A DNA stretch of 64,000 bases, taken from NCBI GenBank assembly GCA_025526935.1, contig JAHLKD010000049.1, positions 1 through 64,000 on the forward strand. The letters are read 5' to 3'. Each line of letters opens with the position of its first letter. The first letter of the stretch is position 1. A program made the position numbers and the translations under genes. Positions 17,341 to 56,963 of this stretch are shown here, piece by piece. The notes below the pieces were generated by a model, which was given only the letters and a program-made list of their open reading frames with translations, ran no database searches and was not told where the DNA came from. Source of the DNA: Cladochytrium replicatum (lineage: Eukaryota > Chytridiomycota > Chytridiomycetes > Cladochytriales > Cladochytriaceae).

Positions 17341-17391
17341 CAATAGTTACGAATCGTTGCTTAACACATTTCTTCGGACAACAACGACAAG

Positions 17392-20300
17392 ATGGGTTCA
17401 GGATCGAATGACGCCACATCTTCGCGGCCGAAGCCATTCACCGGTAAAACGCTGCAGGATTTCGATCTGTACATGGAACAAGTGCAGACTTACGCAAACT
17501 TATGTGGCGGCGCTGGCACTATGCTTCTCCAAGAACCAATGGCTCTTCCTGATAATCCGAATTACGAGGCGGAAGGAAATCGCCCACAGCGTCCGATAGT
17601 CATCGCCGGAGCTGCTGGCGGAGCTGCTAACGAAGCACGAGCACAATGGGAAGCAGAACTACGTGAACATTTGGCGATCGTCACACACAACAGTCACTTA
17701 CGTACGCAATATCGTGCTGAGATGCAAGATTACCGTGCACAACAAGCGGACAATAACGTCGCAGTTGGAATTCTATGCGAATGTTTCCCAAAACGCGACA
17801 TGAATCGAGTCAGAGCTTATGCGTCAGCAAAAGGCAAAGTCGATGGACTTCGCCGAATTTTCAGTGCTGGCGGACAAGCTCCGATCGAATCGTCTATGTG
17901 GGAGCAACGGCTGGTAGATCTGAAATGTACGAACGGTCAGTCGGCAGAAAGCGTTCAGCAGTTTGTGACCGACCTCACTGAGTTATTCGAACTCAAACTG
18001 AACTCTTTACCGGACGAACTCGTAATCAAGGATCTACTAAACCGGTTAGTCGCAAAAATCACGATGCAGACAATTGAACTACGGACCCTCGTACCTTTTC
18101 TCGGAAAAATGATCACTTCTGCGTATGCCGAATGGGAACCGGCGTTAATACAAGATCCAATTGATGCTGCAAACCCGAATGCTCCGCGACCATTCCACCA
18201 AAAGCCAACGCATTACTTCGAAACAGTGTCAAATATCTTGACCGACCTAAACCAATTGGTCCAACTCAACGTCACCATGGATGCCGGTGGGCCGAATGGG
18301 ACAAAGAAGGCCATGAAGGCAAAGGCGAAGAAAGCGAAGGCGAAAGCGAAAGCCAAGGTTGCGAAGTCGGAGGATATTTGTACCTTGCATCCGAACTCAT
18401 CTCACACCAATGCTCAATGCCGTAAGCAGGGTGCCTCGGGTGGCTCAGGCAGTAGCGGTGGGAGTAGCAGTTCCACTCGGACCAGGCAGTCGCAGGACTC
18501 CAGGTCGTCCACATCTTCTTCTGCAAAGAAGACAGATCTCACATGCAATTTCTGTGGCAAACGAGGACACAAGCAGTCGGCGTGTAAACGCTATCTCACT
18601 GCAAAGAGTCTTTGTTTAGACACGGATTTTCGTGCATTCATTGCCAGCCGTGGCGATGCAGGTGATGATTCGTCGGAGGACGAATCTACCGCCAAACCGG
18701 TGTTGACCAAGAAGGTAATCTTTGACCTTACCCAACCTACTTCTGTTGATAAAGATGCTGACACATACATCGGAAATATGTTTTCGATAGTGAACGCACA
18801 CTCGGCACAGAAGGTTGTCCGTGTACATGTTCAAGCAAAGGATCGTGTGGGTTTGCTTGATACAGGCGCAACTGTTTGGATGACACCTAATCGTCATGCC
18901 TTTAGTTCGCTGACGTATACGAATGACGAGGACGTGGTGGAACTAGCGGATAGTCATACAATTCCAGTTTGTGGTTTTGGAGATGTATCTGTAGTTTTAC
19001 CCAATGGGCGAATTAAGATAATACACAACGCACTTTATGTTCCTGATCTCGAAGACACACTTGCATCAGTGTGTAGTATCATTGGAGACTCCGGGGACAT
19101 TGTGAGTTTCACCAAAGACAAGGTTATCCTCACGCATGGTGATACGGATGAACACGTTATTATTGGGCGACGGGAAAGAGATTTGTACTATCTCTATGCT
19201 GATGTTAGTACCGTCGGAACTCACCAACCGCGGCATGTGATTGCTCAACGAGCTAAAGCAGTAGCGGTATCCGCAGAAGGTCTCGATCAGTCGATGGACT
19301 TTACGTCCGGTGTACAATCTTCTCACGCGATGGGTCTCGATGTAATGTCAGACAACAACATTCGTCAAACGAACGATGATGAATGTCAACGAGCATCTCA
19401 AGATACAGTTGGAGTGAGCACCAACTTATCGCCAGTGACAGTACACGAACTTGCAAAGTTACACCAGCAGTTTGGTCACATCCACTTACGGACAATCTTT
19501 CGAACGGCAGAGAAGCTCAACATCAAAATGCCCAAGGTTGAACCGGATGCATTCAATCTTGTCAACAAATCAATTATGCAGAATTGTTTGGTCTGTAGTC
19601 GCACGAAGCTGAAGCAGAAGCCGATTTATTCTACAATAAGTCGAGCTCCGAGGAAACTTTTCCGTCTGTTTTCCGATGTCGTACGTTTAATCTACGACGG
19701 ACAGAAGAAGAGATATTGGCAGATCATTGTCGACAAACAACCTCGTTTCATCACAATCTACTTCCTGAATCGAAAGAGTGATGCGGTGGATAGTATGATT
19801 CGACATATCGCTGATGTGGAAAATCGCAATCACCCATTACACGTTGCTGAACTACGTTCCGATTCAGGAGAATTGATTACTAAACGGTTGATCCAATGGT
19901 GCAATACCAAGATTCCTCGCATCCGCGTCCACCCAGCTCCTCCGTCAGTAAAGGAACTCGATGGTCTATCAGAGCGGAATATACAATCGATCAAGTATAT
20001 GTCGGACGCGATGCTGCTACAAGCTGGACTACCACGAACACTTCAATTCGTGCAACTCTCCATCCTATACGCTGCGGTCGTCAAGAACGCTACTTTCCAT
20101 TCAGCTGTGAATGCGATTCCGTACTGTGCTTACCTTGACAAGCGGATAGATTTGGCAACTATCCACGCCTTTGGAACACTCGTTAGTTTGTGGATCTCAC
20201 ACGAACAAAGGTTGGCGCGCAGAATCCGAGACAAGTCTGAACTAGGTCTGTTTCTCGGATACAAGGGTGAAGACCTGAAGATCGTCATAGCACTCAATTT

Positions 20301-22416
20301 TCGGACAAACACAATAGGCGAATACTTCCATGTTACGTTCCACGAGGGAGTTTTTGTTGGTTATAATCCTACCCGACAGTTACTCGACGATCTTACGGTA
20401 CAATATCCACTGAAGGCCGGGACATATTTCGATGTTGATCAAATACCAACCGGGGATCAGGGGGTGCAAGAGACGACTGTTGAGTTTGTCTCAGACAATT
20501 TCCCGATTTCTACCGTTGCAGACGAAGAAATCGATGAGGATATAAACGACGACCCCATATATTACCGCTTAGAAGAAGCCGGTGACATGCATGTTGTTGA
20601 ACATTTACATGGACTAGACGATGATGACCCAGACGATGCTGATTATGATCCAAATGCTGATTTATCGACTCCACAATCCATTACTGAAGAATCTCCGAAT
20701 TTGTCTTCCGTATCTCCTGTAGAGGAATATGATGCACAACTCGAAAGTGATCTTCAATTCATTGGAGAAGATGTCGACGAAGCGTATGCAGCAAGAAAAC
20801 AAAAACGTCAAGCAAGTGCAAATTTGTCGAACGCCAAAAGGAAACAAAATTCCTTGTTTACCCGGTCCGTTCCTAATATCGATTGGACCCTGAAGGCCGA
20901 TTCCTCATATCCAACACAACCAATTGCGAATGGAAATATATGGACTGCACCAAAGACTCTTCGTGAGGCTTTATCACGATCCGATGAGGCTCCATTCTGG
21001 TTAGCGGCGATGAAGGAGGAAGTTACACAACTAGTCGGCAACAATACTTGGGCCGAAACGTTTTTACCTGATGGACGGAATTTATTATCGGGCAAATGGG
21101 TTTTCACATATAAGCTTGACGAACATGGCAATATTACTCGATTCAAAGCAGGTTGGGTCGTACGAGGATTTTCACAGATTGAAGGATTGGATTTCGATGA
21201 AACCTATTCTCCAGTTACGAAAACGTCCACGATCCGTTTTCTGATTGCATTAGCAGCATTAGTCGGCATGATCATATTCCAGTTTGATATCAAGGGTGCA
21301 TATCTCAATGCAATACTGGAAGAAGAGAACTACGTCGAACTCCCTCATGGTTTCGGACGAGTAGATTTCCGGAATCGACCCATCGTCTGCAGACTTATCA
21401 AAAGTCTGTACGGTCTACACCAGGCAGCTCGAGAATGGTACAAAACTCTTTGGAAACAATATCTCAGTGTTGGTTTCGTGCGGAATATTGCAGACATCTG
21501 TCATTTCTGGCGATACAATCCAACAAATAATACCCGCGAACACACTACCGTTCATGTCGATGATATACTACATTTTTCCACAGATCCAAACGCATATCAT
21601 CGGTTTCAGACCGATTTGGAAACTTCGTTCACAGTAGGCAGTACTTCGAAGGCGAAATGGATTCTGAAAATGGAGTTATTGCAGACAATGGAAGGATATT
21701 TCCTTAGCAATGCATTGTACGTAAAGAAGATTCTCGAAGAAGCGAATTTATGGGGTACCAACATCAAACCGACCAAAACACCGATGTCAAAATCATATAT
21801 CTTTGATGAGACCACACCAACACTGTCCGATGCCGAGGCAACACAATTTCGATCAATGTTAATGAAGATATCGTACGTGGCGACTAAGACACGACCGGAT
21901 ATTTCATACGCAGTCAATATTTTGGCACAACATCAGATTGATCCTCGACAGTCAGAATCAAAGGCTCTCTATCGATTACAACGATATTTACTCGGTACTT
22001 GGGATTACGGTTTACACTATACACGGACTGGTATCACGTCTCCGATGCTAAGACCCGACGGTCTCTACATGTTTGATTCGGCTAACAACCCACAAGGTTA
22101 TGCCGATGCAGACTGGGCGGGCGATGCAGATAGATACTCACGAACCGGTTACGTGGTAATGTTCGCTAATGCGGCAATCAGTTGGCAGTCGATTCGACAA
22201 CAGACTATTGCAGCCTCGTCGTCGGAAGCCGAACTGTATGCGCTGAACGAACTATCGCGTGAGATGAAGTGGATGAAAAATCTTATGACGGGTATTGGAA
22301 TTACGTCGTTCAATCCGCTCCGTTTATGGCAAGACAATCAATCCACCGAGTCTATCGCAAACAATCTGTTCAACAACAAACGGACCAACACATGGACGTT
22401 CGCGAGAGATTTGTGA
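17392..22416 (+). CDS. Copia gag-pol polyprotein (1674 aa), C-terminal frameshift
   Basis: Single long frame encoding the structural and enzymatic proteins of the element. In order: gag (about 1-330); Lys/Ala-rich and Gly/Ser linkers; CCHC zinc knuckle CNFCGKRGHKQSAC; aspartic protease LLDTGATVWMT; pre-integrase with CLVC; integrase core with Asp in LRSDSGE and Glu in GLSERN; reverse transcriptase with FDIKGAYLNA and VHVDDIL, where copia elements normally have YVDD; RNase H with YADADWAGD and SSSEAELYAL. The frame stops at 22416 because one base is missing in a run that should read ACCAAACAC. The expected continuation (HMDVRERF, then DMIADILTKPLG) is open in the next frame to 22574. Start chosen as the first ATG after the LTR, in a good context. 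Confidence 0.95.
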   Translation: MGSGSNDATSSRPKPFTGKTLQDFDLYMEQVQTYANLCGGAGTMLLQEPMALPDNPNYEAEGNRPQRPIVIAGAAGGAANEARAQWEAELREHLAIVTHNSHLRTQYRAEMQDYRAQQADNNVAVGILCECFPKRDMNRVRAYASAKGKVDGLRRIFSAGGQAPIESSMWEQRLVDLKCTNGQSAESVQQFVTDLTELFELKLNSLPDELVIKDLLNRLVAKITMQTIELRTLVPFLGKMITSAYAEWEPALIQDPIDAANPNAPRPFHQKPTHYFETVSNILTDLNQLVQLNVTMDAGGPNGTKKAMKAKAKKAKAKAKAKVAKSEDICTLHPNSSHTNAQCRKQGASGGSGSSGGSSSSTRTRQSQDSRSSTSSSAKKTDLTCNFCGKRGHKQSACKRYLTAKSLCLDTDFRAFIASRGDAGDDSSEDESTAKPVLTKKVIFDLTQPTSVDKDADTYIGNMFSIVNAHSAQKVVRVHVQAKDRVGLLDTGATVWMTPNRHAFSSLTYTNDEDVVELADSHTIPVCGFGDVSVVLPNGRIKIIHNALYVPDLEDTLASVCSIIGDSGDIVSFTKDKVILTHGDTDEHVIIGRRERDLYYLYADVSTVGTHQPRHVIAQRAKAVAVSAEGLDQSMDFTSGVQSSHAMGLDVMSDNNIRQTNDDECQRASQDTVGVSTNLSPVTVHELAKLHQQFGHIHLRTIFRTAEKLNIKMPKVEPDAFNLVNKSIMQNCLVCSRTKLKQKPIYSTISRAPRKLFRLFSDVVRLIYDGQKKRYWQIIVDKQPRFITIYFLNRKSDAVDSMIRHIADVENRNHPLHVAELRSDSGELITKRLIQWCNTKIPRIRVHPAPPSVKELDGLSERNIQSIKYMSDAMLLQAGLPRTLQFVQLSILYAAVVKNATFHSAVNAIPYCAYLDKRIDLATIHAFGTLVSLWISHEQRLARRIRDKSELGLFLGYKGEDLKIVIALNFRTNTIGEYFHVTFHEGVFVGYNPTRQLLDDLTVQYPLKAGTYFDVDQIPTGDQGVQETTVEFVSDNFPISTVADEEIDEDINDDPIYYRLEEAGDMHVVEHLHGLDDDDPDDADYDPNADLSTPQSITEESPNLSSVSPVEEYDAQLESDLQFIGEDVDEAYAARKQKRQASANLSNAKRKQNSLFTRSVPNIDWTLKADSSYPTQPIANGNIWTAPKTLREALSRSDEAPFWLAAMKEEVTQLVGNNTWAETFLPDGRNLLSGKWVFTYKLDEHGNITRFKAGWVVRGFSQIEGLDFDETYSPVTKTSTIRFLIALAALVGMIIFQFDIKGAYLNAILEEENYVELPHGFGRVDFRNRPIVCRLIKSLYGLHQAAREWYKTLWKQYLSVGFVRNIADICHFWRYNPTNNTREHTTVHVDDILHFSTDPNAYHRFQTDLETSFTVGSTSKAKWILKMELLQTMEGYFLSNALYVKKILEEANLWGTNIKPTKTPMSKSYIFDETTPTLSDAEATQFRSMLMKISYVATKTRPDISYAVNILAQHQIDPRQSESKALYRLQRYLLGTWDYGLHYTRTGITSPMLRPDGLYMFDSANNPQGYADADWAGDADRYSRTGYVVMFANAAISWQSIRQQTIAASSSEAELYALNELSREMKWMKNLMTGIGITSFNPLRLWQDNQSTESIANNLFNNKRTNTWTFARDL

Positions 22417-34624: not shown

Positions 34625-36162
34625 ATGCAGTCCCTAGCCTTACAATGTGCAAGTATGCGGGGGAGTTGGACGTCCTGAGAACGATCTTGACAGGATCACG
34701 GCCTCCTTTCTCTGACGTGCTAGTTTTCGCAATCACGATCGGAATTCCGTTCTCGCCGACATTGATGCTCGAGTTGCTCGTTTCTACGTCAATGAGCTTC
34801 GATGCTTGGACTCGCGTCAGATTCACGTTTGCGTTCGATGTGTCCACCTTGAACTCCGACGCCTTTGCGTCTTCGATCGTGATCTTCCCGTTCGAAGTCT
34901 CGACCTTCAACGTTTCCGCACATTCCACTTCAGAAACGTGGACAGGTGAGTTCGAGCTCTCTAGAGAAATCTTCCGACCTTTCACGCGATCGGCCCTCAG
35001 CTTGGAATTGCTGGTTTCCGCCTTCAATTCAAAAGCGTTGACCTGCGACAAGTGCATGGTGGCATTGCTGGTCTTCAAAGTCACCGACGATCCTGATACA
35101 TTAGTCACGTCGATTTTGGCATTTGATGTCTTCGCTTTGATGTTGTTGAACGAATTGACATCCGAAATGGTGATCTTCGCGTTGGAGGTCTTGAACGTGG
35201 CGCTGGTCTGGATGCTTGGCCCGTCGCCGCCGAAGCGGAGACCTTCGAGATCGAAAGCGTAAATGTTGGCATTCGAAGTCTCCAAGACGATCTCCTCCAG
35301 TTCATGTGCGCCACCAAAGTTGATCGACGAATTGGTGGTCTTTAGGAACACGTTGTCCGGGAGCTGTCCGGTTGATACTCCCCGGTCGTCGACGCTGATT
35401 GATCCGTTACTTCCCTCCAAGGTAATGAAGCGCTGTCTCTTCGAGCCAGATGAAGAAGCTGCAGTCAACCCAGGAAGAGTTACGGTAACAGTCACTTTCA
35501 CAGCGATTGCAGATCCAACCCCAAAAGCTTGAGAAAGGAATTGAAGGAAGCCACCCTTCACTTTCCCGAAAGCCCCTGGGCGTACATCAGCAGAAGTCTC
35601 TGTTTTCAAAAGCTCTGAATCGAGCAAGATTCCGAATACACCAGGATGGCGGGTATCGATTACAGGAACGACATCCAAGTCTCCACGAGCATGAACCTGA
35701 ATTTCGATCCTTCCATGCGATGAAGGCTTCTCTGCGGTCTTCAGCACTATTGTCGATGACTTGGGATCACGCAAATCAGAAATGAAACATAATACGGATC
35801 AGGACATACCACGAGGAATCGTGATGTAGATGCTGCATGGACGAAAACACCGTTAGGATACTAAGAAGTTTTAGTAATGGATGATTTAGAGATGGCAAAT
35901 ACTCCATCACAGTACATACGTCTGCAGGCTCGTACAGGAAAACGTGGGGATTCTTCTGCTCGGGGTGCAGGCCGGTCCAATTGTTAATCACGTATTCGAA
36001 TGAGTTTTTAGACGAGCTTCCGCTTTTTTGCTCCGATTCACGTCCCGGAAACGGTGGGGGAACATCATCGTCAGATCGAGTTGGAAACGGAGGTGCGTGT
36101 GTATCATTTTCAGGGAATGGAGGGGCGGGTGTGTCGATGTCCATTTTCGTAGTTGCCGCCAT
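34599..36162 (-). CDS. TSNA-repeat beta-helix protein (DUF4097-like)
   Basis: The N-terminal exon (MAATTKMDIDTPAPPFPEN) has three APPFP-type acidic/Pro repeats and then NNWTGLHPEQ. After two short introns (near 35800-35920) a 370-residue exon begins. It has about a dozen imperfect repeats of 18-25 residues, each with T-S/T-N-A/S-x-I/V (LETSNANIYAF, FKTSNAKITI, AKTSNAKIDV, VETSNGKITI). Such regular strands form a right-handed beta-helix in DUF4097-type putative adhesins. No signal peptide or membrane helix is evident, so it is probably intracellular, and 'adhesin' should not be assumed. The intron before the repeat exon seems to end in AAG. Many fungal genomes have proteins of this layout; function unknown. 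Confidence 0.72.
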
Positions 36163-36164
36163 CG

Positions 36165-36746
36165 CTAGTTTGCTTTGCTGCTTAGCTGTTGGTTTTGTGG
36201 TGCTCGCTTTGATCCGTTGGGATCGCCAACGCTTTTTAGGTTGATGTGTGTGGCACGGACTGTGTCCGTGCCGTTGCACGGATGTTCAGGTGGCATTCGG
36301 GTGGACTCTCTAATACCATGACAAGTGGGCTGGCGGAGAACAAGGAGAAGATCATGCAATAGTTCATGCTTCACGTAAGAAACATTTCTTGAATCTTCAA
36401 ACAAGGAGGAAAACAAGAAATATCTCGAACATACGTATTGAATTGGAACATATTGGAATATGATCCTTCCAGCCGATTTGTTGGAATTAGTGGTCCCCAG
36501 CACAATGATGTGAATTATTCCACCAATCGAGGTGCGAGGATTGTTATGGCGAAAAGCGTTTCTGATCCATCTCTTCCCACTTCTGATATTCATCCCAAAG
36601 GTTATCTGAGCGGTTTCTTCTTGTTGCTCCTGCTTCTGCTCCTGAAACCTATCGGCCTCCCGCCTCTCATTTGCTTCGTTCAATTCATCGTCTCCAGCAA
36701 GCCTTCCCGCATTGTTCCCAAACCTCGAAGCTCTCTTTGCCTCCAT
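36165..36746 (-). CDS. Hypothetical coiled-coil protein
   Basis: Starts MEAKRASRFGNNAGRLAG at 36746, followed by a charged helix (NEANERREADRFQEQKQEQQ) likely to be a coiled coil. After that the same frame runs on with unconvincing composition. Another frame offers LWDEYQKWEEMDQKRF and a stop near 36543, which looks more protein-like and would need an intron or a one-base change. Boundaries therefore unsure; not recognised. Confidence 0.35.
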   Translation of the reverse strand: MEAKRASRFGNNAGRLAGDDELNEANERREADRFQEQKQEQQEETAQITFGMNIRSGKRWIRNAFRHNNPRTSIGGIIHIIVLGTTNSNKSAGRIIFQYVPIQYVCSRYFLFSSLFEDSRNVSYVKHELLHDLLLVLRQPTCHGIRESTRMPPEHPCNGTDTVRATHINLKSVGDPNGSKRAPQNQQLSSKAN

Positions 36747-36898
36747 TGTTGCTTCGATCGGCGCCGTATCCACTCATACACTCGTATGTCCTCAGTTTTT
36801 ATCGGTACTTTACGTTCGTGGCACCAGTCGTTTTATCCAACATACTTTGATTGAGAGACCAGCTCCGCAATCAAGGCCGAGTTCGGCAAATCAGCCTA

Positions 36899-37470
36899 GT
36901 TAAAGAATGGGATATCGATGCTCTCCTTATGAACATAGATATCCGCTTTCGGAATAGCGGCTGCTTCGGGAGGAGGATGTCCGTCCAACAGGGTAAAAGC
37001 CATTCGTGCGCACTTTTTAATGGTCGCGACTTTATCGCGATTCGACCTTATGGCACCTATGCAGTGAAAGGGCGACGGAATAGCCATAATTTTTGAGTTG
37101 AGTTTAAACCTAAAATTTGGATGCACTTAATGAGAACGAAGCTTGGATTAAACTTACGTATTGGTCATACCAATCTTGAAACTCTCGCAAAGTCCATTCG
37201 AACTTATGATCCCAATGTCACTAATGACTGCTATGCGAGGGCGGTATCCGCCGAAAATGGTGTGCGGAACTGCTGCTAATCCTGGTAGGTGGAGCTGCTC
37301 CACACTTTGAAAAGGCAATGTCAGGTAATTTGTTCAGATCATAGATTTGCTAGACTTACACTTCTACAGCTGTCACCACATCGATTCCAACAAATCGAGC
37401 GTCCACGTCCGCAAGAGATCCTTCATGGAACAGTTTCATGATCTGCCAATCCAATCGGAGCTTCAAAACC
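36899..37470 (-). pseudogene. HEN1-like small-RNA 2'-O-methyltransferase, degenerate
   Basis: HEN1 methylates the 3' terminal ribose of small RNAs. Blocks in family order on the minus strand: LFHEGSLADVDARFVGID, VVTAVEV, intron, VEQLHLPGLAAVPHTIFGGY, RPRIAVIS, HWDHKFEWTLREFQDW, then FHCIGAIRS and CARMAFTL, ending IDIPFFN at 36899. HEN1 binds metal through ExxEH plus the His of the HKFEWT block; here the first motif reads EVVEQ, so the first His is replaced by Gln. The usual STPN-EFN stretch between IAVIS and the HKFEWT block is missing, and the frame changes there and again before MAIPSP. The SAM-binding N-terminus is not visible upstream. Best read as a decaying gene. It lies head to head with cobT. 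Confidence 0.55.
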
Positions 37471-37998
37471 TTGGTACAAATCCAGATTCAATCTCTTCTC
37501 ATATAGAAACTGAAAGTCCAGCTGAGTTGGTTTCAAACGCTTTACTGCCAATCCAGCGAAAGAAAGTCAACATCTACCCGGACGAGCTTGGTGAAGCTTC
37601 CATCGTTGGTCAGAATCTCAAGCAAGGCCCATTCCACAACCAAGTTCACGCACTAGCACTCAAGCTCCAGTCAAGTGATGCAATCATAGGAGTGCAATTA
37701 CGTCAACTGGTGTTGAATATTTCAACGCAGTTTAAAACTGCGCAAGCTGTTTTGGCCATTCTGCTCCATACTGTAGGAGTGGGTGCGCACCCTTACCAGA
37801 GACCTTCGTTGTAGCCGCAGTGTGGTTGGTCGAGGTAAACACGATAGCCGCTTCCTTCTTCCGCCGGGTGCTGCATCGTGCTCGCCATAATATCCCGAGG
37901 GTATGAACTGACGTTGCCCCAGGCGCTGGTGCACAGCGTGTTTGCTGATTTTGCACGTGGCTTCAACGGAGGCAAGACTGAAGAACTGACGTAACACC

Positions 37999-39398
37999 AT
38001 GGACGACAGTGCGAAATGGTTGGCAGCCGCATGGGCCGAGATTGACATCAAGACAAAGCCGCAAAAGTCGCTAGGATTAATCGAGGACTGGGGTGCAAAG
38101 CTGGTTGTACTTAAGAAGTCGCTCAAGCCTCGGTGATGCTTTCTTTTGCTCGAGCTTGCAAGAGGCATGACTCATCGTAATCTTTGTCTCCAGAGTGTCC
38201 TCCGGAAAGGTCTTGCTTTTTGCTGCAGATCACGGACTTGCCGACGAGGATGTGAGCCCATTCCCGAAGCAGGTTACGCCGCAGATGCTGATCAACTTGA
38301 GCCTTGGTGGAGCTGCAATCAAGTATGCCCATTAGGGATTCGTACTGTTATCTGTTTATGATTCTGAATTTTGCTCTCAGTGCTTTCTGTAGAGCTTCGG
38401 GATTGGATCTCGAGGTGGATATGATTCACTCCAGACTTCTGACCAATCACTCATATCAAATCTGCACAATCAGGTCATTGATGTGGGTGTGGACAACGAC
38501 AAGGAGCTCGCAAACATTACTGTTGCAAAACATCCGCTTTCCGCTCACGGAACTCTGTCCTCTCTTCGTGGACCTGCAATGACTCCCGAGGAACTTGAGC
38601 ATGCTTTGGAACAAGGTCGCCAAGCTGTCCAGAGAGCTGTCGCCGCCAGTGCAGATCCCGATTCTCTTGCCATCGGAATCGGAGAGCTAGGTATCGGCAA
38701 CACCGGAACCGCAGCGTGCTTGCTGGCGGCGGAAAGCCGACTCCCCGCCGAAGAAGTTACCGGTTCCGGAACCGGCGCGGAAGGCGAGCGCCTCCGTCAC
38801 AAGATTGCGACCGTTGCTGCTGTCACGGATCCCGTGAACGGGCCGCACGCCGAGGCACTTGCGAAATGGCCCGACCTTGATTTCAAAGATGTTTTGCGCC
38901 GAATCGGTGGTCTCGAGATTGCGGCGATGGTTGGAGCTATCCGCGCCGCAATTTTGGAACACCATGTTCCGGTGCTCGTGGACGGTATTGTGACGCTTGC
39001 GGCGTACTTGTTTGCACTTCGCATCTCCGCACCTGAAGAAGCAGCGCTTCTCACTGTCGGTGCATTCCTTGCACATCAGCCTGATCAAAGCAACGGATCG
39101 GCCGCTCTTGAGCGCATTCGCATTGCGCAGAAAAGTGCGATCGATCAGTTTATTGCTTCGGATGGTCAGCCGAAGCCTTGGAATGGTCAGGAGCTTTGGA
39201 AGGCCGAACCCTTGTTCCAGGTTAGGATGCGTCTCGGTGAAGGGTAAGTGTTCCATGCTCTGCTGAATGTCTTTGATCCACTGACCAGTCCACAGAACTG
39301 GAGCAGCTCTGGCTTTTCCGACTTTGAAGGCCGCTGCTCATCTTGTGACTGATATGGCAACATTCGCCAGTGCCGGCGTAAGTGAAAGCAAAGAATGA
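37999..39398 (+). CDS. cobT: Nicotinate-nucleotide:dimethylbenzimidazole phosphoribosyltransferase
   Basis: CobT transfers phosphoribosyl from nicotinate mononucleotide to 5,6-dimethylbenzimidazole (or another base), making the lower-ligand nucleotide of cobamides. Five exons (37999-38132, 38194-38322, 38381-38414, 38474-39243, 39296-39398) join in phase to about 389 aa. Family motifs in order: [86 protein letters not shown]; and the C-terminal [14 protein letters not shown], which holds the catalytic Glu (Glu317 in Salmonella CobT). The SHxSxEPGH-like stretch is atypical ([10 protein letters not shown]), and about 25 extra residues precede MRLGEG. Canonical introns (GTAAGT, GTATGC; CAG acceptors) show it is a nuclear eukaryotic gene, not bacterial contamination. 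No targeting peptide is obvious. It is divergent from the HEN1-like relic. Confidence 0.92.
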
Positions 39399-39542
39399 AG
39401 GAAGTTTTAGAAAGCAATGATGATGAGAGGTCGAATCATTAAATTCTATGTGTTGTGATTCAACTTTTTTCAAATTATTAAACATAAATACCAATAAATT
39501 CAGTGTTTGTGGCAGTGTCGCTGCCCGAAACTTCACAACCAA

Positions 39543-40877
39543 ATGCCTTTGCAACGGCGGGTCTTTCGACCCGGGGACGCCCGCACTCTGGTTGGCATCC
39601 TGGCCTGGACATTCTTTGTAGAACCGGTCGTATCGCAGTCCACAACGGCTTCTCTTTCAAGTACCGTGTCGGCCATCTCTCCATCCCAAAGCCCACTATC
39701 TATTTGCAACAGCAACATCGAATGCTCTGAACGAAACAATGCGGCCCAGCCATTGTGCATTAATGCCCAATGCAGTTCCTATTCAGGCAATGCAAGTCAG
39801 CTCGTGGGCTCATATTGCACAACCGATCAAGAGTGTTCAACGAGTTGGAGACCACTTCTTGGCAACTCGTCTGCACCACCAAGTCCAGCGAACTTACGAT
39901 GTGTGAACGTAGCGGGCATTGGTCTACGGTGCGAGAGTTTAACGACCACAAATGTCGATGCTGCTTTCCCGTCAGTTACGGCAAGACTACCAACATTCAC
40001 AGCCATAGCAAGCGCAGACTCCAATGACGCAACGGTCTCGGGGCTCACAGTCGCAATTGCAGTCGTTAGCTCGCTGGTACTACTATGCATAATTTTCCAG
40101 CTCGGTTCGTGCATCCGAAGACGCAGAAAAAGACTACGAGAAGCGGAGGAACACGCCAATTACATGGCATCGTTACAGGATATGGCAATGACGGGTTTAG
40201 AAGGTCGGCAGTATACTCCAGAAACGTACAATCCCGAAGACCATATCCATACCGAGATGTATGCTGCAGCATTCCCGATTCTTCCTGCATACCCTGGAAC
40301 TCCACGACCATCTGCGCCGCCATCACGAGCACAAACACCCAGCGGAGTGACGGCGACCACACCACCTCAGAATCGCCCACCTTTACCAACTATGAATCAT
40401 CTGACATTGCCTGCAGAAGTGCCGGCCCCAGAACACCACGATAGCAGTTGTGAAGGCAGCAATACAGTTGAACAACCACCAATTGGCTCAACGTCGAGCC
40501 AAGAAGCACCTCTGGGATCTGCGTCGAGCAGAGAAGGGATACTCAACACTGCTGCAGGTGTCAGACCAGTCTCAGTCGTGCCTGATGTGATGCCACCACC
40601 ACCAACTTACGAAGTAGCAGTTATGACACCAGTTCAAGGAGGGATGATGGGAACTTCAACCGACGATATCCTTGACTCTGCGCTGACGTTGACGGTGGGA
40701 ACTCCGGTTGGATTTGGGGAGCGAATGGAGCAGGGTTTTGCAGGGTCGCCAGCTGATGCGTTTGTGAATCGAAGGAGCTCACTTGTGGTTTCGAACCGAG
40801 GCTCGAATCGCCAGACATTTAGACTTTCCAGTATCTCCAGCATAAATGAGGTGCCGCTTGAGCAGTTGACACGATGA
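39543..40877 (+). CDS. Single-pass membrane protein with Cys-rich ectodomain and PPxY tail
   Basis: Intronless, 444 aa from the ATG at 39543. N-terminal signal or anchor (TLVGILAWTFFVEPVV) with a Ser/Thr-rich stretch; ectodomain with about eight cysteines (ICNSNIECSE, LCINAQC, YCTTDQECS, LRCVN, LRCES); one membrane helix (VAIAVVSSLVLLCIIFQL) followed by RRRRKR. The cytosolic tail, about 260 residues, is Pro/Ser/Thr-rich and contains PPPPTYEV, a PPxY motif of the kind bound by WW domains of Nedd4/Rsp5 ubiquitin ligases. This fits a surface sensor or cargo adaptor whose turnover is controlled by ubiquitin; that role is inference. Not a recognised family. Confidence 0.72.
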   Translation: MPLQRRVFRPGDARTLVGILAWTFFVEPVVSQSTTASLSSTVSAISPSQSPLSICNSNIECSERNNAAQPLCINAQCSSYSGNASQLVGSYCTTDQECSTSWRPLLGNSSAPPSPANLRCVNVAGIGLRCESLTTTNVDAAFPSVTARLPTFTAIASADSNDATVSGLTVAIAVVSSLVLLCIIFQLGSCIRRRRKRLREAEEHANYMASLQDMAMTGLEGRQYTPETYNPEDHIHTEMYAAAFPILPAYPGTPRPSAPPSRAQTPSGVTATTPPQNRPPLPTMNHLTLPAEVPAPEHHDSSCEGSNTVEQPPIGSTSSQEAPLGSASSREGILNTAAGVRPVSVVPDVMPPPPTYEVAVMTPVQGGMMGTSTDDILDSALTLTVGTPVGFGERMEQGFAGSPADAFVNRRSSLVVSNRGSNRQTFRLSSISSINEVPLEQLTR

Positions 40878-41167
40878 AGCGATGAAGCGGTTTTTGCGTA
40901 TGATATTTTGTTTCCATTGCTGTGTTGTTTGCATACGTTCCGTTTTTTGCGAGCATCAGACATTAATAAATATTTATTCTCTGTTTCGTTGTCTGCCTGA
41001 CCTCACGCATGCTGTCTACCTCCCAGAGTAAGACTGTGCAAGCTGACGATCGCCAGGACTCTTGACGTTATGTTATCTCGCTTTAAATAGCTACAGCAGC
41101 TCCAGCTATCCCGGAGTTCCCCATGATTGAGATTCGCCTTTCATACTTAAAAATCGTTCATTTCAGA

Positions 41168-42858
41168 ATGCGGAGGGAAGACGATCTGAGGTCATTGACA
41201 AAAAGCGACGTGTGCGAGCTATTCGTGAAACCGTGGACGGAAGAAATGGATTGTCCCTCTGCCACGCTGCAGCGTGCATGGTACGTGAGCTCCACGCACG
41301 TGTCGTTACAGGAAGCGCATTTCACCTAGCCCTCACCAAGAATGAGGAGGCGAAATTTCTTGAGCCGATCAGAACTAGCCCCGGAAAACTCTTTGAAGTG
41401 CTTGAACGGGTGAGATCAGAGGAGAGCCAGGCTGTTGTTCCCGCAGATCAGGAGAACGTACATAAAATCATTCGGCAGACGATCACGTCCCCAAAAATGG
41501 ACCGTCGAATGTTTGATGTTTCCAGAGGGTGGATGTTTGGTGTCCTGGAGCGCAAAGTCGACAGCGTGGTTGACAAGGACAACAACGACTGGAAGCTGCC
41601 GTTGGCAATTATACATATGGACCAGAGAAACGCGGCTGGAGCCGAGGCAATCTTTCAAGAGGCGCTCAAAGTGCAATTGCGTGATCTTGGGCAATACCAC
41701 GATCACGCTTTGGTCACAACGGAGAACCTTGCAACTGTATACAAAAAGCTAGGAAAGCTCGACCTAGCGGAAAAGCTGTAAATCACCGTGCTAGATGCAC
41801 GGAGACGCTTGCTGGGGCCAAATCATCCGGGGAATATATCCACCATGAATCTTGGCCATTGTGATCCAAGAGCAGGGAAAATATGCCCAAGCCGAAGCAC
41901 TCAATGTTGCGTGTGTGGAACAGAATTGGCGGCTATATGGCGAGGATCACGAGGACACGATCCGTTCACTTAGCACACTTGGAGGGCTGTATACCGCCAG
42001 GGGAAGTATGGTCCCGCCGAACCATTTTCCGCACAGTCATAGCCTCACGCCGCAGAACTCTTGTTAACGATCATTCCTACACCTTAAACGCCATACAGGA
42101 CCTGGCATCGTTGTACGGGGATCAGAAAAATTGATCGCTATTTGCCTCGCTGCTCGAAGTCAGGCAGCGAATATTTGGTATTGTTCGTCCTCCTCATACG
42201 CTTGAATCCATAGAAGGCCTTGCATTGGCGTACCAAAAGAATTTCAAGTATGAGCAAGCCGAGTCGCTACATAGAACCTGTGTGTATGCCAATCGACTCA
42301 ATTTTGGCAACGATCATCCCACAACCCTTCGCGTGCTCAACAGCGTTGCGGCCTTTGGTTCAAGCAGAGAAAGAACGAGCAAGCTGAACAGCTGTACATC
42401 TCGTGTCTGGAATCCCAGCGCCGTTTTCTGGGTCCATCCGAGCACCCTGAGAACAGCCGCCAGCTTGTCGCTCGTTCACCAATCTCAAGGGAAGATAGAT
42501 GAAGCTGAGCCTCTGCTGCTGTCTGCAGTACAAATTCAGCGGGAAACGCTGGGCGAAAGTCATCCAGATACTCTTCGCGCCGCCGTCACCAGGTTGGCAA
42601 CATTGTATTATCAGCAGGAGAATTCGATCTTGCTGAACCGCTCATGGTATCGTCCATTGAAGCCAAGCGACGAATTCTGGAATCAGGGCATCCCGAACCA
42701 ATTGCAGCCGTTGGCTTCTTGTCAGAGATGTACAGAACACTGGGCAAGGTGGGAAGTCTCGTCAGCTTCTGACTGAAGCCTTGGCGCTTGCTAGTTCGAC
42801 TGCGGGAAGGAATCACCCTCTTGTTAGAGCAATAAAGGGACTGGTTGAAAAACTATGA
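41168..42858 (+). pseudogene. Kinesin-light-chain-type TPR gene, frame-broken
   Basis: Starts MRREDDLRSLTKSDVCELF at 41168 and shifts frame near 41290 into an open stretch ending at 41781 with the first TPR (ALVTTENLATVYKKLGKLDLAEKL). Further repeats of about 42 residues follow in changing frames: LLGPNHPGNISTM, EQGKYAQAEAL, LYGEDHEDTIRSLSTLGGLY, PHTLESIEGLALAYQKNFKYEQAESL, NDHPTTLRVLNSVA, GESHPDTLRAAVTRLATLYYQQ and a final AGRNHPLVRAIKGLVEKL at 42858. The HP.TL...LA..Y pattern is that of TPR_12/TPR_10. At least six frame changes and internal stops occur. Either a real pseudogene or a region with uncorrected indels. Confidence 0.75.
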
Positions 42859-49729: not shown

Positions 49730-51420
49730 AATACTCTCGTTTCTTTTTTTGACATTATTATTATTTATTTTTTAACAATATTTTTTGTTTATTTTGCACA
49801 TACAATGCATAACAAGAAACAACACCCAAAGTGCCTTACAAGATGGTCATGGCATAGGGAAGCGCGCAGCATAAGGAAAAGCAACAAAGAAAACAGAGAA
49901 AGTAAACTCAAACCTGTCCCGTCAGATACTGCCAAGGTGCCAAAAAAACAGGTGAGTAATAAATAATGAATAAGAAACGTTAAAGATCCACAAATACAGG
50001 GACAAAGAGGGAGTCTGGAGGAGAAACTTCTAATGGCAGACCCACACAGTAAAGCGCCAAATCTTATGAAGACAACGAAAAACAAGATACCACGCTGCAA
50101 GATTTGCTGGGTTGACAATGTGACGTGGACGAAGGCTATCAATTGCAACATCAAGCGGAAGTTGTAAAGCAGGAACAGGAACAGGAGGCAACAATAGGTC
50201 AAGACGCAAACATTCTGAAACATGAGATCTAGAGAGAGTTGCAGCGTGGCAGCGACAAAACTGCTTGTGGGGGTGATAGAACAAACGTCCAACACGATAC
50301 TGCAGAAGCCTCAAGATTGACGAAATAGGGAAGCATGGAGGAGCAATTGCTAGCGCATGAGGGTGGGCAGATGCAAGGGGAGCAAAGCTAGCAGCTATAG
50401 AACCATAGGCAGATGAGGCTACTTGGTGAAAGTTATTTGCAATAACATAAGACGGTTTGGGAATAACAACATTTGCAGCCAGGAAGAGGAAGTGATTGTT
50501 GAAAGGGACAGGAGAACAATGAAAGTGCTTTCCCTGGTGAAGAAAGAATGAAAACATAGAGTGAACCATATCAGGGGCATCATCATCCAACCAACGTTGA
50601 AACATCTGAAACTGCAGATATTGGAGCCGAAACTGAAGGTCAGGAAACTTACAAAACAGCAAAACCCCAGCAATTGAAGTGGAAAATGAAAGGCGAAGAA
50701 ATCGACACAAACTTTGGTGAATAAAAGTCCGAACTGGTTTGCAAACAGCAACAGAGGGAAGAATAAAATATAAACCAAATTCAAGCGTAGGTCGAATAAA
50801 AGACAAAAACAAATGACGAACCACAACCAGAGAATGAGAACAAAACATCCTTGAAAAAGAAAGCAAAGCAAAGGAAGCTGCACGCGCTTTGGCAAGTAGA
50901 TGGGAAATAGTCAGTGAAACCTCAAATCCAGTATCTCCAAAAAAGCAACCTAGATAACGGAATGAAGGCTTGACAGGCAGAGTTTGACCATGAAGAAGCA
51001 CAGGCAAATTAGCTGGAATGGGAATTCTTGTGAGAATCACAGACTTCAAAGGAGCAAAAGAGAAACCACGAGCTTGGGCAAACTGTTCACAAACAGAGAG
51101 AAGAACCTGCATAGCATCCAAAGTAAGTGCAAACAAGGCTAAATTATCTGCAAATAAAAAAGAACTATATTGTGATTTGGCAGGATGAAAGAGTGTTATA
51201 GGTGGGGCGAATGGTTGGAGGAGCCCAGGTAGAGGATCAAGTAAAGTGTATAGAGAAGTGGACTGAGAACAGAACCTTGAAACAAACCTCTAAACAAATC
51301 AAAAGCATCTGAAAAACAATTTGCAACAACCACTCTGGAAGAACAAAAATCAAACAGCGACTTCAAAACAAAAACAAATGGCAATGGTACTCCCCTAGAA
51401 AGAAGCTCAGCCCAAAGAAT
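49730..51420 (-). mobile_element. Non-LTR retrotransposon LINE-A, 5'-truncated copy
   Basis: Minus-strand LINE of the same family as 15496-16347. It begins in mid-reverse transcriptase at 51420 (5' truncation) with LLSRGVPLPFVFVLKSLFDF, GLFQGSVLSPLLYTL, then LFADNLALFAL and FRYLGCFFGDTGFEV, and ends with a C-terminal finger FCRCHAATLSRSHVSEC and a stop near 50030. Two open pieces (51196-51384 and 50030-51136) are split near 51140-51190. The FADD box is FADN, as in the other copy. The 3' end is approximate: A-rich sequence on the minus strand around 49735-49800 may be its tail. Confidence 0.85.
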
Positions 51421-52355
51421 GGTTCAACTATCAATGCTTTCATCGGACCCAGATGTTGATAGCATTTCAGACTATAGAGGTGGTCGAGGCGGCATAGAGA
51501 ACAATTACTATAAGGTTGATAATAGACTGTGAAGGTGCTTGGTTGTGAAATGCAAGTGGAGCCAGAAGGTCGACAAGACAGGATCAACAAAAAACTTCCT
51601 CTGGCATCTGATAAACCAGCATGGACGTATTGCCAGGCCTCTTGGACTGTTAGACACCGTCCCAAGGGACAACCAACATTGAATTTTGTCGCGCTGGACA
51701 AGGAGCAAGACTTTGTGTTCAATCCAGACGTAGCGTGGCGGTCAATTTTGGCCTGGATTGCTGCAGACAATCGGGCTTTTACTGTTGTGGAGAACGAGTT
51801 CTTTGTCAGCATGCTGAAGACTTTTCAGCCAAACAAAACACCAAAGACAGCAAAAACAGTGAAGCAAATGAGACGGATCTATATGATAGGCAGAAGGTTT
51901 GGTTCGCCTTCAAAAGTATCAATAACAGCTGATTGTTGGACATCAAAGAACCAGATTTCTTTTCTTGGAATTACTGCCCACTTCATCACAAAAGAATAGG
52001 AGCCACAGGACTTGCTGCTGCAGATGATTCTGATGGTTGGAAAGCATGAAGGCGTCGCCATGGCTAATCAGCTTGTCAAGTGTCTGGATGAATTTGGCAT
52101 GCTATCGGGTGAACGCTTATTGTGTATTACAACCGACAACGGTTCAAACAACTTTACGATGAGTGCTAAGCTGGAGACGCTATTGGAAGATAGGGATATT
52201 GCATGGTCTGCAGAAACTCAACACATGCAGTGTATGGCACACATTATCAATCTTGCAGCAAAAGATTTTATCGATACATTCAGGCCCGCAGGGGACACAG
52301 TCGCAACTGACGATAACTAGCAACAAAGGGTGAACAAGTTTCAAATTGCAGACGG
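51421..52355 (+). mobile_element. hAT-family transposase fragment
   Basis: Two open pieces (51529-51999 and 52012-52320) in the same element, separated by a stop at 52000. Blocks of the hAT RNase H-like core are clear: ITADCWTSKNQISFLGITAHFI (first catalytic Asp region, here split for length: ITADCWTS then FLGITAHFI), CLDEFGM, ITTDNGSNN (second Asp) and QCMAHIINLAAKDF. The BED finger, the C-terminal dimerisation domain and both ends are missing; it is cut by LINE sequence on both sides. Non-autonomous relic. Confidence 0.88.
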
Positions 52356-52361
52356 GGGATT

Positions 52362-55300
52362 TTTTTTTTGAACTTCATAATATGTATTTATTGTCCAACC
52401 AATACATATCACCCGCTGGTGCAAAATCCAAATACAAGTGTAAAAATACACGTAAATTGGCAGCACATGGGGAGCCGTGCGAGCCGTAGGAAAGTAAAAT
52501 ATTTCAAAACACTAAGGCATATCCAAATCAACAAACCAGACAAGATAGAATCAGGAGCGGGAGACAAAACTAGGTCATAACCAAGACAGTTTGACCAAAT
52601 GCGGTTAAGTGCACGAAGAACAAGAACCCACTGGGAAAAAGCAGGGGAAGGATATAAAGGCCATGGTGAAAGCATATCAATTGCAATGTCAAGAGGTAGT
52701 CGGGGATCGTCAGGCGGGCCCAAATCAAAACTAGCAGACAAACTAGCACGCAAATGTAGACACACAGAGACATGGGCACGCGACACTTCAGGGGCATCAT
52801 GGCAGTTCCTACAAAAAGGTCGGGGGTTTGGAACAGGCGGCCAAGCCGATATAGCAGGAACAAACGAAGACATACTGTTGGGAGATGTTGGTGTAGGGGT
52901 AGCAACAAAGCGTTGCGAAGTTTCAAATTGCGGACAGGGGCAAACGAAACTGCAATTGGTCCATTATGCGCAACAGCTAAAGACTGAAAATGCGACATCA
53001 ACGGATGAAGTGGGGGCACAACAGGCATAGGAGCAATGAGATCATTGTGACAAGCGGAAAAATAAGGAGATGAACCATAACCGACTGGAGACGACCAATA
53101 GAATTCCAACACAGCAGCTGGTAACAGTGGGCTGGAATCACTAGACCAGCGAGCAAGCATACGTGCCTGAAGGTACTTCAGCCTGAACTCAAAAGTAGGA
53201 ATTTGCGCTAACAGCAACAAACCAACCCGCGAAGTGGTATGGGCTAGCGAAAACAGACAACACAGGGCATGATAACAAAAATGCTCGAGTACCTGAAGCT
53301 GAGCAGTGGAAGGCCGAATAAGTGCTAAACCAAACTCAAGTGAAGGTCTAATAAAAGACAAAAACAACAACCTGGCAACACGAGGAGCAGACCCACCAAA
53401 GTACGAGACATAAGGTGCAAAAAGATGCAATGAGGCACGAGCTTTCTCTAAGCGATGATCAATAGTTGCAGCAAGATCAAACCCTGCAATAGTAAAATAA
53501 TGACCAAGGTATCTAAATGAAACCTCGACAGGGAGGGCAGAGCCATGAAGCTTCAAGGGGGTGGGTAACCGTTGAGAAGATAACACAGCACACTTTGAAG
53601 GTGAAAACACAAAATGAGAAGCTAAAGCAAAATCTTCACAAATTTTCAATGCACGTTGGGCTTGCTCAGGGGTGGCAGAAAACAAAGCTGTGTCATCAGC
53701 AAAAAACAACGAATTGAAAACAGGAGTGTTATAAGAAAACCTAGCAAGATGAGAGGATTCACGACGAAGGAGCTGTGCTAAAGGATTGATGAAAACTGAG
53801 TACAAGAACGGAGACAAAACAGAACCTTGAAAAAGACCTCGTGGAAGCAAAAACAAATCAGAAGCACGATTCTCTATAACAACCTGAGAAGAACAACGAT
53901 CAAACATACTCATCAAAACAGAGATCAAACGGTTTGGAATTCTGGGAAATTGATGAAGACGTTCCCACAAAAGAGGCCTATGTACAGTATCATACGCTGC
54001 TTTAATATCTAAGAAAGTAACACAATAAGGCAGAGCAGTGCAGGAAGCTCGTCGAAGGGTAGCATCTAATGCAAAAACACACTCAACACCTGAACGATTG
54101 GCCTGGAAACCAGCTTGGGCGGGGTCAAGTTTACCAACATAAGCTACAAGCATAGGAAGCAGGGTACGCTCAAAGAGTTTTCTATCAACATTGGTTAAAG
54201 TAATGGGGCGGGACTGACTAATATCACCAATGGAACCCTTATTCTTCCAAACAGGTAACAACAAGCCAGCATTCCAGGCAGAGGGCGACAAACCTGAACA
54301 GAAAATAGCGTTTGAACGTTGAACAAAAAGGATAGCAACATCAGAAGCTAACGGCTTAAATAACTCAGCTGGAATATGGTTTCGGCCAGGAGCAGAGTTG
54401 TTTGGGGAAGAACGAATAGCACAAACAAAGTCACTAACACTAACTGACACAGAATCATTCAGCGCATGTAGACGAACGTGTTCTGCACTGGCAGAGGATT
54501 GTGCAAACTGAGTCTGATAAACGGAGGCAAAGTGATTGCAATAATGAGATAAAGAGGCAAGATCAGACAATAAACCACTTGCAGCTGAGCGCCGTTGATG
54601 ACACCTACGCGTGGTGGAAAGAACTTTGCTAACCTCGGTTAAAGAACTAGGAGAAGAACTAAACATATTGTCGCCAGAAGCCTCTCGAGCTCGCTGAGAA
54701 AGAGACCAAGTACGAAAAGCTTTGACACGCTCACGCGATAGCCGGTCACGCTCCAAGCGGCAATACTCAACTAAAACAGGATCAGGATCATCACAGGAAG
54801 AAACAGCTAAATAGTGCTTATGAGCAAGTAAGTAGCTCCGTCGCAAGGCCACTAAATGCGGTGGCAACAATGGCAGGGCAGGGTGACAGCGGACTAAACT
54901 GGGGGGTCCAATGACACAAGCAGCACACGAAGTAACAAAGGACAAAATAATATCCAATGCAGAGTCAATACATCCCTGTGCAACATCCACAGACATTTGG
55001 GCAAAGGCGGGAGCTTCTAAAATTGGACTGAGCGCAGCATTGACATCAGCAAGGGTGGGATCAAAAAACAAATGTCCCACTTCCTCCATTGCTTGAAAGA
55101 CAGCATGTTCACGCAACAGATGAGCAGCCCAGCGCTTGTGGGGGGGTGCAGCAGAGGGAGCGCTGGCATTGGGAGGAGCAAAAGAAAAAACAGCTGTAAC
55201 CGGAAAATGGTCAGAAGCCCAAGGCATAAACTCGCCGTCAGCTAGACGACTATGAACTATGTAAGAAATAGGATCACATTGAAGCAGAGGATTGACAAAC

Positions 55301-56483
55301 AACAAATCGATAATGGAGTCACCATTGTGAGAAGAAAATGTGGGGTTATGACAGGAAGGGTGCTTAACTAGAGAGAAACTAGTGGCAGCAATAAATTGCT
55401 CAAACAACCTACCCCTACAATTTGAAGAATGATCACCAGTAGCTAAAAAACGGGCATTGAAATCGCCCAACAAAAGAACAGGGCACGGAGACGACGGGAC
55501 ATGTTGAGGAAGTGAAGCAATAAACTCTTCAAGGAAGGGGTCCTGAGCAATACCACACGGAGGCAAATAATACCCTCCAACCAAAAGCCCACGAAATGTA
55601 AACCATAGAGAGGTGCCACCATAACTAGAAACGAGACGGAAATCAGAAGCTCTACAAAGACTGCGATTGATCAAGACTCCCACACCAGCCCGTCGTGTAC
55701 CCGATGACCCAGGAGAAAAACGAGTGTCAAAAATCAAATCTGGGGAAGGCAGCGGGTCTAAAGGAAAAAGGTGTGTTTCAGTCAGGAGCAGAAAAAACAA
55801 TGTGATTTTGCGCACATAAAACGAAACAGTGAATCAAGAACTCCAAAGCTCAAATTGCGACAATTGAAGGTACCAACTCGAACACTAATCATTGACGAAG
55901 ATGGGTTGAGCGAGTGACGCGCAATCCCGCGGGCACTGTCCAGCACAGTTTCCTGAGCATCCATGGGGAGCTGACCACGGACATACAGGAAAATAGCAGG
56001 ATCAGTAACTGAACTGAGGATATGTGCATATCTCTTGTGGACAACTTCCCTGACCGCAGCCTCCCGCTGCTCCAAAGGCAGAGGAGAGGCTCGGCGAAGA
56101 AAGTCAGGGTTTGATTCGTCAGTGGAAGCTTCCTCGGAGTGGGGTCACGACCAGCAAGGGCAGTCCTGACAGCTTCTGTACGAGATTCAGCACTCAGTGT
56201 GGGGAGACTCTCAAGCACACGGGCACGGGCATTGGCAGCAGCAGCGGCATAAGTGCGTGGACCACGAGGTCCACGTGGGGCAGGTCGGCTAGACGGGGGG
56301 CGAGGGCCAGGAGCACCAGAGTTCCCAAGATCGTCCTGAATTGGAGGATTACCATGCAGTTGTCTAGGGAGAAGGCACACAGGCGCAGCCACATCATCAT
56401 GGCGGGAGACAGGGGCAACCGGAGGTGAAGGCGAAGGCAGCGGCCTCCCAAAGGCAAGCACGAGATCCTCGGCCATATCACAT
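52362..56483 (-). mobile_element. Non-LTR retrotransposon LINE-B, near full length
   Basis: 4.1-kb minus-strand element with a poly(A) tail (T-run at about 52361-52370 on the plus strand). The 5' edge directly abuts the poly(A) tail of another LINE-B 3' end (56484), so its 5' UTR is only a few bases long. The 3' UTR carries a 9-bp perfect stem (52380-52388/52401-52409) and GAGCCGTGCGAGCCGTAGG. Confidence 0.9.
52409..56476 (-). pseudogene. LINE-B polyprotein: endonuclease plus reverse transcriptase, three frameshifts
   Basis: Seems to be one long ORF starting MAEDLVLAFGRPLP at 56476. A Pro/Ala/Arg-rich N-terminus is followed by an apurinic-type endonuclease (VGTFNCRNL, LTETHLFP, LLLGDFNARF, ASDHFPV), the reverse transcriptase (FLDIKAAYDTVHRPLLW, RGLFQGSVLSPFLYS, LFFADDTALFS), and a C-terminal finger FCRNCHDAPEVSRAHVSVC. 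All core catalytic residues are present. The frame breaks are near 56130-56150, near 55800 (a T6 run that needs T7) and near 52815 (a T5 run that needs T6). At least two are in homopolymers, so the element may be active in reality and merely mis-sequenced. Confidence 0.88.
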
Positions 56484-56891: not shown

Positions 56892-56963
56892 GATCCCTTG
56901 GCGCAACGGTAGCGCGTCTGACTCCAGATCAGAAGGTTAAGTGTTCAAATCACTTAGGGGTCA
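56892..56963 (+). tRNA. tRNA-Trp (anticodon CCA)
   Basis: 72 nt, no intron. Acceptor stem GATCCCT/AGGGGTC (one T-G pair), D stem GCGC/GCGC, anticodon stem TCTGA/TCAGA around loop CTCCAGA (anticodon CCA), T stem AAGTG/CACTT with loop TTCAAAT, discriminator A. All four arms pair, so it should be functional. Confidence 0.93.

Follow-up and report, generated by a model that had tools for sequence, protein, structure and literature searches.

Gene Structure and Duplicate Copy

The window, that is, the whole stretch of 64,000 nucleotides that was analysed, belongs to contig C49; the genome comprises 50.5 Mb in 198 contigs. At positions 37999–39398 of its forward strand lies a nuclear CobT-type gene of five exons with a product of 389 amino acids. 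Both gene borders are exact, with the ATG at 37999 and the TGA ending at 39398, and the 389 codons contain neither a stop nor a frameshift. Exon 1 (37999–38132) encodes residues 1–44 and part of residue 45, including the region of the TKPQKSLG motif, and is followed by intron 1 (38133–38193; 61 nt, GTGATG..CTCCAG). Exon 2 (38194–38322) carries FAADHG, QVTPQM, and GGAAI, and intron 2 (38323–38380; 58 nt, GTATGC..TCTCAG) separates it from the 34-nt exon 3 (38381–38414). Intron 3 (38415–38473; 59 nt, GTGGAT..AATCAG) leads to exon 4 (38474–39243). After intron 4 (39244–39295; 52 nt, GTAAGT..CCACAG), exon 5 (39296–39398) opens with TGAALAFP and runs to the stop codon.

All four introns have GT..AG ends. 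By themselves these ends are weak evidence, because the same span holds 133 GT..AG pairs of 45–75 nt. None of the intron lengths is a multiple of three, so that every intron shifts the frame and is needed for the in-frame joining of the CobT sequence. An unspliced reading from exon 3 into exon 4 was ruled out, since the CobT frame switches there; the predicted structure of the unspliced frame alone has a pLDDT of 36.5. The predicted gene model rests on the reading frame, homology, and the paralogue rather than on the splice ends.

The paralogue lies on contig C17, the genome's one other PF02277 locus; all PF02277 matches outside the window come from this copy. Window positions 35214–42129 pair in pieces with G000:C17:216240-223500, the longest piece being 76.3% identical over 2975 columns, and the C17 locus is, as judged from this alignment, an old duplicate of the whole surrounding segment. 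Its CobT copy is decayed: 10 of the 12 exon indels are frame-shifting. Between the two copies the exons are 73.5–82.7% identical and the introns 52.2–62.7% (52.2, 58.6, 60.0, and 62.7% for introns 1 to 4). The 359 codons that could be compared give a dN of 0.108 and a dS of 0.661 (dN/dS about 0.16); purifying selection therefore acted on the gene for the greater part of its history after the duplication.

Paired segments were seen in all five cases compared (window/C17, C10/C26, C11/C2, C88/C95, and C24/C25); their longest pieces share 76–81% DNA identity and extend into non-coding parts. At the level of sequence, this pattern suggests a hybrid, two subgenomes that have diverged, or an ancient duplication of the whole genome.

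Family Membership, Conserved Residues and the Altered Motif

CobT family enzymes transfer the phosphoribose of nicotinate mononucleotide to a base, giving an alpha-riboside phosphate such as alpha-ribazole phosphate. The product of the window gene matches PF02277 (DBI_PRT) with 282.2 bits (E 7.4e-84; gathering cut-off 22.6). It scores below the cut-offs of the CobT equivalogs TIGR03160 (280.2 vs. 319.3 bits) and NF000996 (275.1 vs. 306), and is therefore classed as a member of PF02277 rather than as an established CobT equivalog. Among proteins of solved structure, Thermus CobT matches best (E 1.5e-46). An alignment was made with 86 prokaryotic relatives, comprising the best 80 of 589 prokaryotic matches and six sequences from plasmids. 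Of the 69 columns in it with a conservation of 90% or more, the window protein keeps 57, among them Lys209, Asp269, His300, and Glu355. The last of these is the catalytic Glu of RLGEGTGA (codon 39239–39241), present in all 86 relatives and equivalent by alignment to E317 of Salmonella CobT. The preliminary description, made from the letters of the window, had proposed a five-exon CobT with the family's motif order and the catalytic Glu, and on both points it holds. On these data the window protein probably works like CobT.

The departures from the family cluster in one place. The SHxSxEPGH stretch is AHQPDQSNG here, with residues 300–307 (HQPDQSNG) encoded at 39074–39097. Four conserved residues are changed in it: S302P, E304Q, G306N, and H307G, at positions where the relatives have Ser in 78, Glu in 86, Gly in 79, and His in 85 of 86 sequences. 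The SxExGH motif is absent from both other forward frames. Directly behind the altered motif and before MRLGEG there is an insertion of 27 residues (315–341; 39119–39199), as seen in the alignment of relatives. The alteration of the motif had been noticed earlier, as had the insertion, then put at about 25 residues; both are real. AHQPDQSNG is identical in the window and C17 copies and the insertion is largely shared, so that neither is a sequencing error, and the motif changes are older than the duplication. Taken alone, the insertion has a dN of 0.07 and a dS of 0.42 against the C17 copy (25 codons only); on these few codons it behaves as coding sequence, and the codon pattern ruled out its reading as a missed intron. 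Further insertions of at least four residues relative to the 86 relatives are found at 158–161, 224–231, and 287–291.

An AlphaFold model was made of exon 4 only (256 of the 389 residues) and has a mean pLDDT of 88.3 and a pTM of 0.89. A Foldseek search of this model against the PDB returned 28 matches at E ≤ 0.001, all of them CobT or ArsAB, the top one being CobT 1j33 (E 1.0e-10). In the predicted model, exon 4 thus has the CobT fold. The 27-residue insertion prolongs the modelled helix after the motif and then forms a low-confidence loop.

It had also been proposed that the altered motif and the insertion might change the base specificity of the enzyme. The titles of PDB entries for base complexes of Salmonella CobT name S80, Q88, E174, L175, and E317 as mutated, and through the aligned Yersinia sequence we infer that these correspond to Phe68, Met76, Glu170, Leu171, and Glu355 here. 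Phe68 is found in 24, Met76 in 80, and Glu170 in 74 of the 86 relatives; Leu171 is rare, Met occupying this position in 85 of them, and is also the residue of Salmonella and Yersinia. The residues aligned with the pocket are ordinary save Leu171 and so give no strong pointer to a new base. Nor are we aware of any indication that the base is contacted by the altered motif or by the insertion. Of the earlier proposal, the structural changes stand, whereas the aligned base pocket does not bear out a changed specificity.

Pathway Partners Elsewhere in the Genome

Cobamide salvage or remodelling had been suggested for this organism, and of the partners named at the time CobS, MetH, methylmalonyl-CoA mutase, and cobalamin adenosyltransferase are present, along with CobU. 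The putative CobU gene lies on the reverse strand of contig C77 (58670–59552) and has two exons, encoding 273 amino acids with the P-loop GGARSGKS. It matches PF02283 with 146.1 bits (cut-off 27) and falls just below the NCBIfam equivalog cut-off (152.9 vs. 161). An insertion of some tens of residues separates the halves of the Pfam profile at about residues 127–206 (G000:C77:58670-59473). The CobS gene, on the forward strand of contig C35 (75116–76120), has four exons, 273 codons, and the motif DGLSDMFDG. It reaches 158.3 bits against PF02654 (cut-off 23.2) and lies below the NCBIfam equivalog cut-offs (194.9 vs. 273; TIGR00317, 89.5 vs. 110). Our searches found no PDB relatives of CobS.

The search for CobC gave a less firm result. 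Among 13 His_Phos_1 stretches, a histidine phosphatase on C48 is the candidate: of its 12 NCBIfam matches the best is TIGR03162 (alpha-ribazole phosphatase), but the score, from hand-stitched pieces, is 61.2 bits, far below the cut-off of 162.9. The histidine phosphatases on C24 and C25 were rejected as CobC, as by eye their translated frames read as 6-phosphofructo-2-kinase/fructose-2,6-bisphosphatase.

The enzymes that handle and use the cofactor are encoded as well. Cobalamin adenosyltransferase occurs on C11 and C2, MeaB on C97 and C5, and methylmalonyl-CoA mutase in pieces on C26 with a second copy on C10. Five pieces on C15 represent the homocysteine, pterin, B12-binding, and activation domains of MetH, and CblC on C14 is a weak match (28 bits vs. 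a cut-off of 27). CobU, CobS, and the strong MetH match occur once each in the genome.

The profile searches read the genome exon by exon, and a gene in many small exons could therefore be missed. Within this scope the genome gave no match to BluB (TIGR02476, E ≤ 0.1), CbiZ (PF01955, E ≤ 1), or CbiB (PF03186, E ≤ 0.1). In the 14 control genomes the same profiles gave matches in 14 (above the cut-off in three), five, and eight, respectively.

Relatives and Eukaryotic Surroundings

A single-sequence search of genome contigs returned no relatives of the window protein; the prokaryotic relatives were found by an alignment-based search of these contigs. The best 80 of 589 share at most 38% identity with it in the best segment and 41% over aligned columns. 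In a tree of 87 rows, formed by the window protein and its 86 prokaryotic relatives with no eukaryotic CobT among them, the protein is the sole occupant of a branch of length 1.73 (median 0.35), and its neighbour is a group of 38 rows drawn from many phyla (support 98/86); the tree program cautions that so long a branch is placed with uncertainty. An AU test that grouped the protein with Bacteroidota was set aside, since the Bacteroidota rows form no clade in the tree. The nesting inside one bacterial clade that the preliminary description had set against its own proposal was not seen: the protein is not nested in any single bacterial phylum. In a plasmid collection, identities are at most 36.5% for CobT among the 40 matches listed, and at most 28.9% for CobU and 36.3% for CobS among the five matches listed for each. 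Of all 70 CobS plasmid records, 69 are under 60% identity and one, which is not among the five listed, falls in the 60–80% band.

The surroundings are eukaryotic. Of ten open reading frames of the window that were scanned, three matched a family, and the window holds pieces of Pex2/Pex12 and inositol polyphosphate kinase and also TPR proteins. The CobS gene lies near a Pus10 C-terminal domain and a gene of the 6-phosphogluconolactonase family. As far as these comparisons reach, the CobT gene is no recent bacterial import, because eukaryotic genes share its contig, none of the best 80 of 589 relatives is more than 38% identical to it, and its branch is long and solitary.

Several other features of the window and the genome were recorded. 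Just downstream of cobT, a gene at 39543–40877 (forward strand) encodes a product that starts like a signal peptide, has a single transmembrane-like stretch, and ends in a tail rich in Ser and Pro; its Pfam match is sub-threshold only, and a closely similar gene is present in the C17 duplicate. Several Ty1/copia-like elements occupy positions 1–24000, including a gag-pol frame at 17365–22413 (forward strand) that is open over 1683 codons and was named from its translation. On the reverse strand, long frames at 50033–55833 resemble, from their translation read by eye, a LINE-type endonuclease and reverse transcriptase, and the 50–56 kb region of the window shows a strong AT skew. A tRNA-Trp(CCA) gene lies at 56892–56963 (forward strand). 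PF03142 chitin synthase gave 73 stretches in the genome, many in contig pairs; the count alone is no proof of a fungus, because PF03142 also matches in four of the 14 prokaryotic control genomes. One open reading frame unites cytochrome b5, chitin synthase, and DEK_C domains, an arrangement that we take to be that of fungal class V/VII chitin synthases. This arrangement and the short introns fit a fungus, or possibly a close non-fungal opisthokont.

Proposed Role and Alternative Explanations

The gene content makes it likely that the window gene is a nuclear CobT-type member of a genome-wide nucleotide-loop assembly pathway whose likeliest substrate is cobinamide. The order of the assembly steps is family knowledge from bacteria. 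Cobinamide, freed from broken or foreign cobamides, would receive an adenosyl group from the adenosyltransferase. CobU would phosphorylate it and then activate it by guanylylation with GTP. CobT, if expressed and active, would activate a base taken from the surroundings, and the membrane-bound CobS would couple the activated base to the activated cobinamide. A CobC-like phosphatase would finally take off the phosphate, and the finished product would serve MetH and the mutase. As the searches gave no BluB, the base would be either a purine or an imported compound (DMB or another). Cobinamide is the likeliest substrate in view of the presence of CobU and the failure to find CbiZ or CbiB. The genes, their introns, the conserved residues, and the earlier purifying selection are shown by the sequence; catalysis, expression, the flow through the pathway, and the origin of base and corrinoid are inferred. 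Against this explanation stand the loss of four motif residues, including Glu304, which all 86 relatives have, the equivalog scores of CobT, CobU, and CobS below the cut-offs, the low score of the hand-stitched CobC candidate, and the failure to find BluB, CbiZ, and CbiB.

Remodelling was considered as an alternative, in which complete but unsuitable cobamides such as pseudocobalamin are imported, their tail is cut by an unrecognised enzyme, and the molecule is rebuilt with DMB. The presence of CobU does not decide between remodelling and salvage, because CobU would act after tail cleavage too. According to the main text of PMC4850488, the algae that use pseudocobalamin and DMB have a similar gene set, also with no identified CbiZ or CbiB. 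In the present genome neither enzyme was found by profile search and no tail-cutting candidate was seen, so that remodelling is possible but doubtful. The earlier suggestion of salvage or remodelling thus stands as far as the partner genes are concerned, and lacks CbiZ and CbiB for its second half.

The protein might also be a drifted CobT relative that uses another base, or uses nicotinate mononucleotide in another pathway, its role in cobalamin assembly having gone. Such drift is what the lost Ser302, Glu304, Gly306, and His307 with the adjoining insertion, the long branch, and the sub-equivalog score would lead one to expect. The catalytic Glu and most conserved columns are nevertheless retained, and the genome encodes CobU and CobS, both with an established role in the pathway of CobT and both carrying their signature motifs; we regard this explanation as unlikely. 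It is quite unlikely, too, that a CobT devoid of SxExGH has as its base not DMB but a purine or a phenolic compound made or imported by the organism, which CobU and CobS would then attach to scavenged cobinamide to give a cobamide of its own. If this were true, the organism could supply its neighbours with that cobamide.

That the window gene is itself now decaying like the C17 copy, and is not expressed, appears very unlikely: the C17 copy does have ten frame-shifting indels in its exons, and the motif changes predate the duplication, but the window copy is intact throughout and the dN/dS stays low despite one of the two copies being decayed. It is extremely improbable that the gene stems from contaminating bacteria or was recently acquired from a single bacterial group: the CobT family is mainly prokaryotic, but the gene has four introns and lies on a eukaryotic contig, its whole segment has an old and decayed duplicate, the best 80 of 589 relatives resemble it at low identity, and in the tree it falls outside any single phylum.

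Comparison with Known Systems and Implications

The favoured reading, assembly of the nucleotide loop on scavenged cobinamide, can be set beside several known systems. With the bacterial CobT of Salmonella and Thermus (PF02277, TIGR03160) the window protein shares the motif order, the Glu, Lys209, Asp269, His300, and the fold of exon 4; it differs in the four introns, the loss of SxExGH, the 27-residue insertion, and Leu171 in place of the Met that 85 of the 86 aligned sequences carry. ArsAB, the CobT relative acting on phenolic bases, has the same fold, and ArsA matches the window protein at E 1.7e-30; in contrast to ArsAB there is one gene only here, and overall identity is closer to Thermus CobT.

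Helliwell et al. (2016; PMC4850488) reported, in the main text of their paper, that CobT, CobS, and CobC go with the remodelling of pseudocobalamin in algae that use it together with DMB, that the tail-cutting enzyme of this algal remodelling is likewise unknown, and that the top non-algal matches are in Aphanomyces and Sphaeroforma. The algal COBT/COBS/COBC systems described there (Chlamydomonas reinhardtii, Pavlova lutheri) share with the present genome nuclear CobT and CobS, B12-dependent enzymes, and the failure to find CbiZ and CbiB. Compared by gene content and not by sequence, the present organism differs in being a fungus-like heterotroph with CobU, a name absent from the main text of that paper.

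Orlowska et al. (2021; PMC8085122) found, as its main text relates, that 50 of 59 non-Dikarya fungi have B12-dependent enzymes, and called the fungal source of cobalamin an open question. The MetH, methylmalonyl-CoA mutase, MeaB, adenosyltransferase, and CblC families are common to these early-branching fungi and the present genome; CobT, CobS, and CobU, present here, are absent from the main text of that survey, which names eight families. The available text of another survey (PMC10406608) mentions cobalamin gene loss just in passing. By title and abstract, with subscription papers and automatic annotation outside the scope of the search, no report of fungal CobT, CobS, or CobU was found. What is new here is not the kind of CobT but its host and how complete the CobU/CobT/CobS set is.

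Fungi were long held to be non-users of B12; genome surveys since 2021 count early-branching fungi among the users. Because CobT and the other tail-attaching enzymes are encoded, the present organism may be able to complete or mend B12 starting from fragments, without a need for the whole vitamin. The altered CobT raises the question of how far a motif with Glu in 86 and His in 85 of 86 relatives can change under continuing selection. A nucleus-encoded CobU/CobT/CobS set makes the source of fungal cobalamin directly testable, and it would place a heterotrophic eukaryote among the organisms that may trade corrinoid fragments and lower ligands in freshwater and soil habitats.
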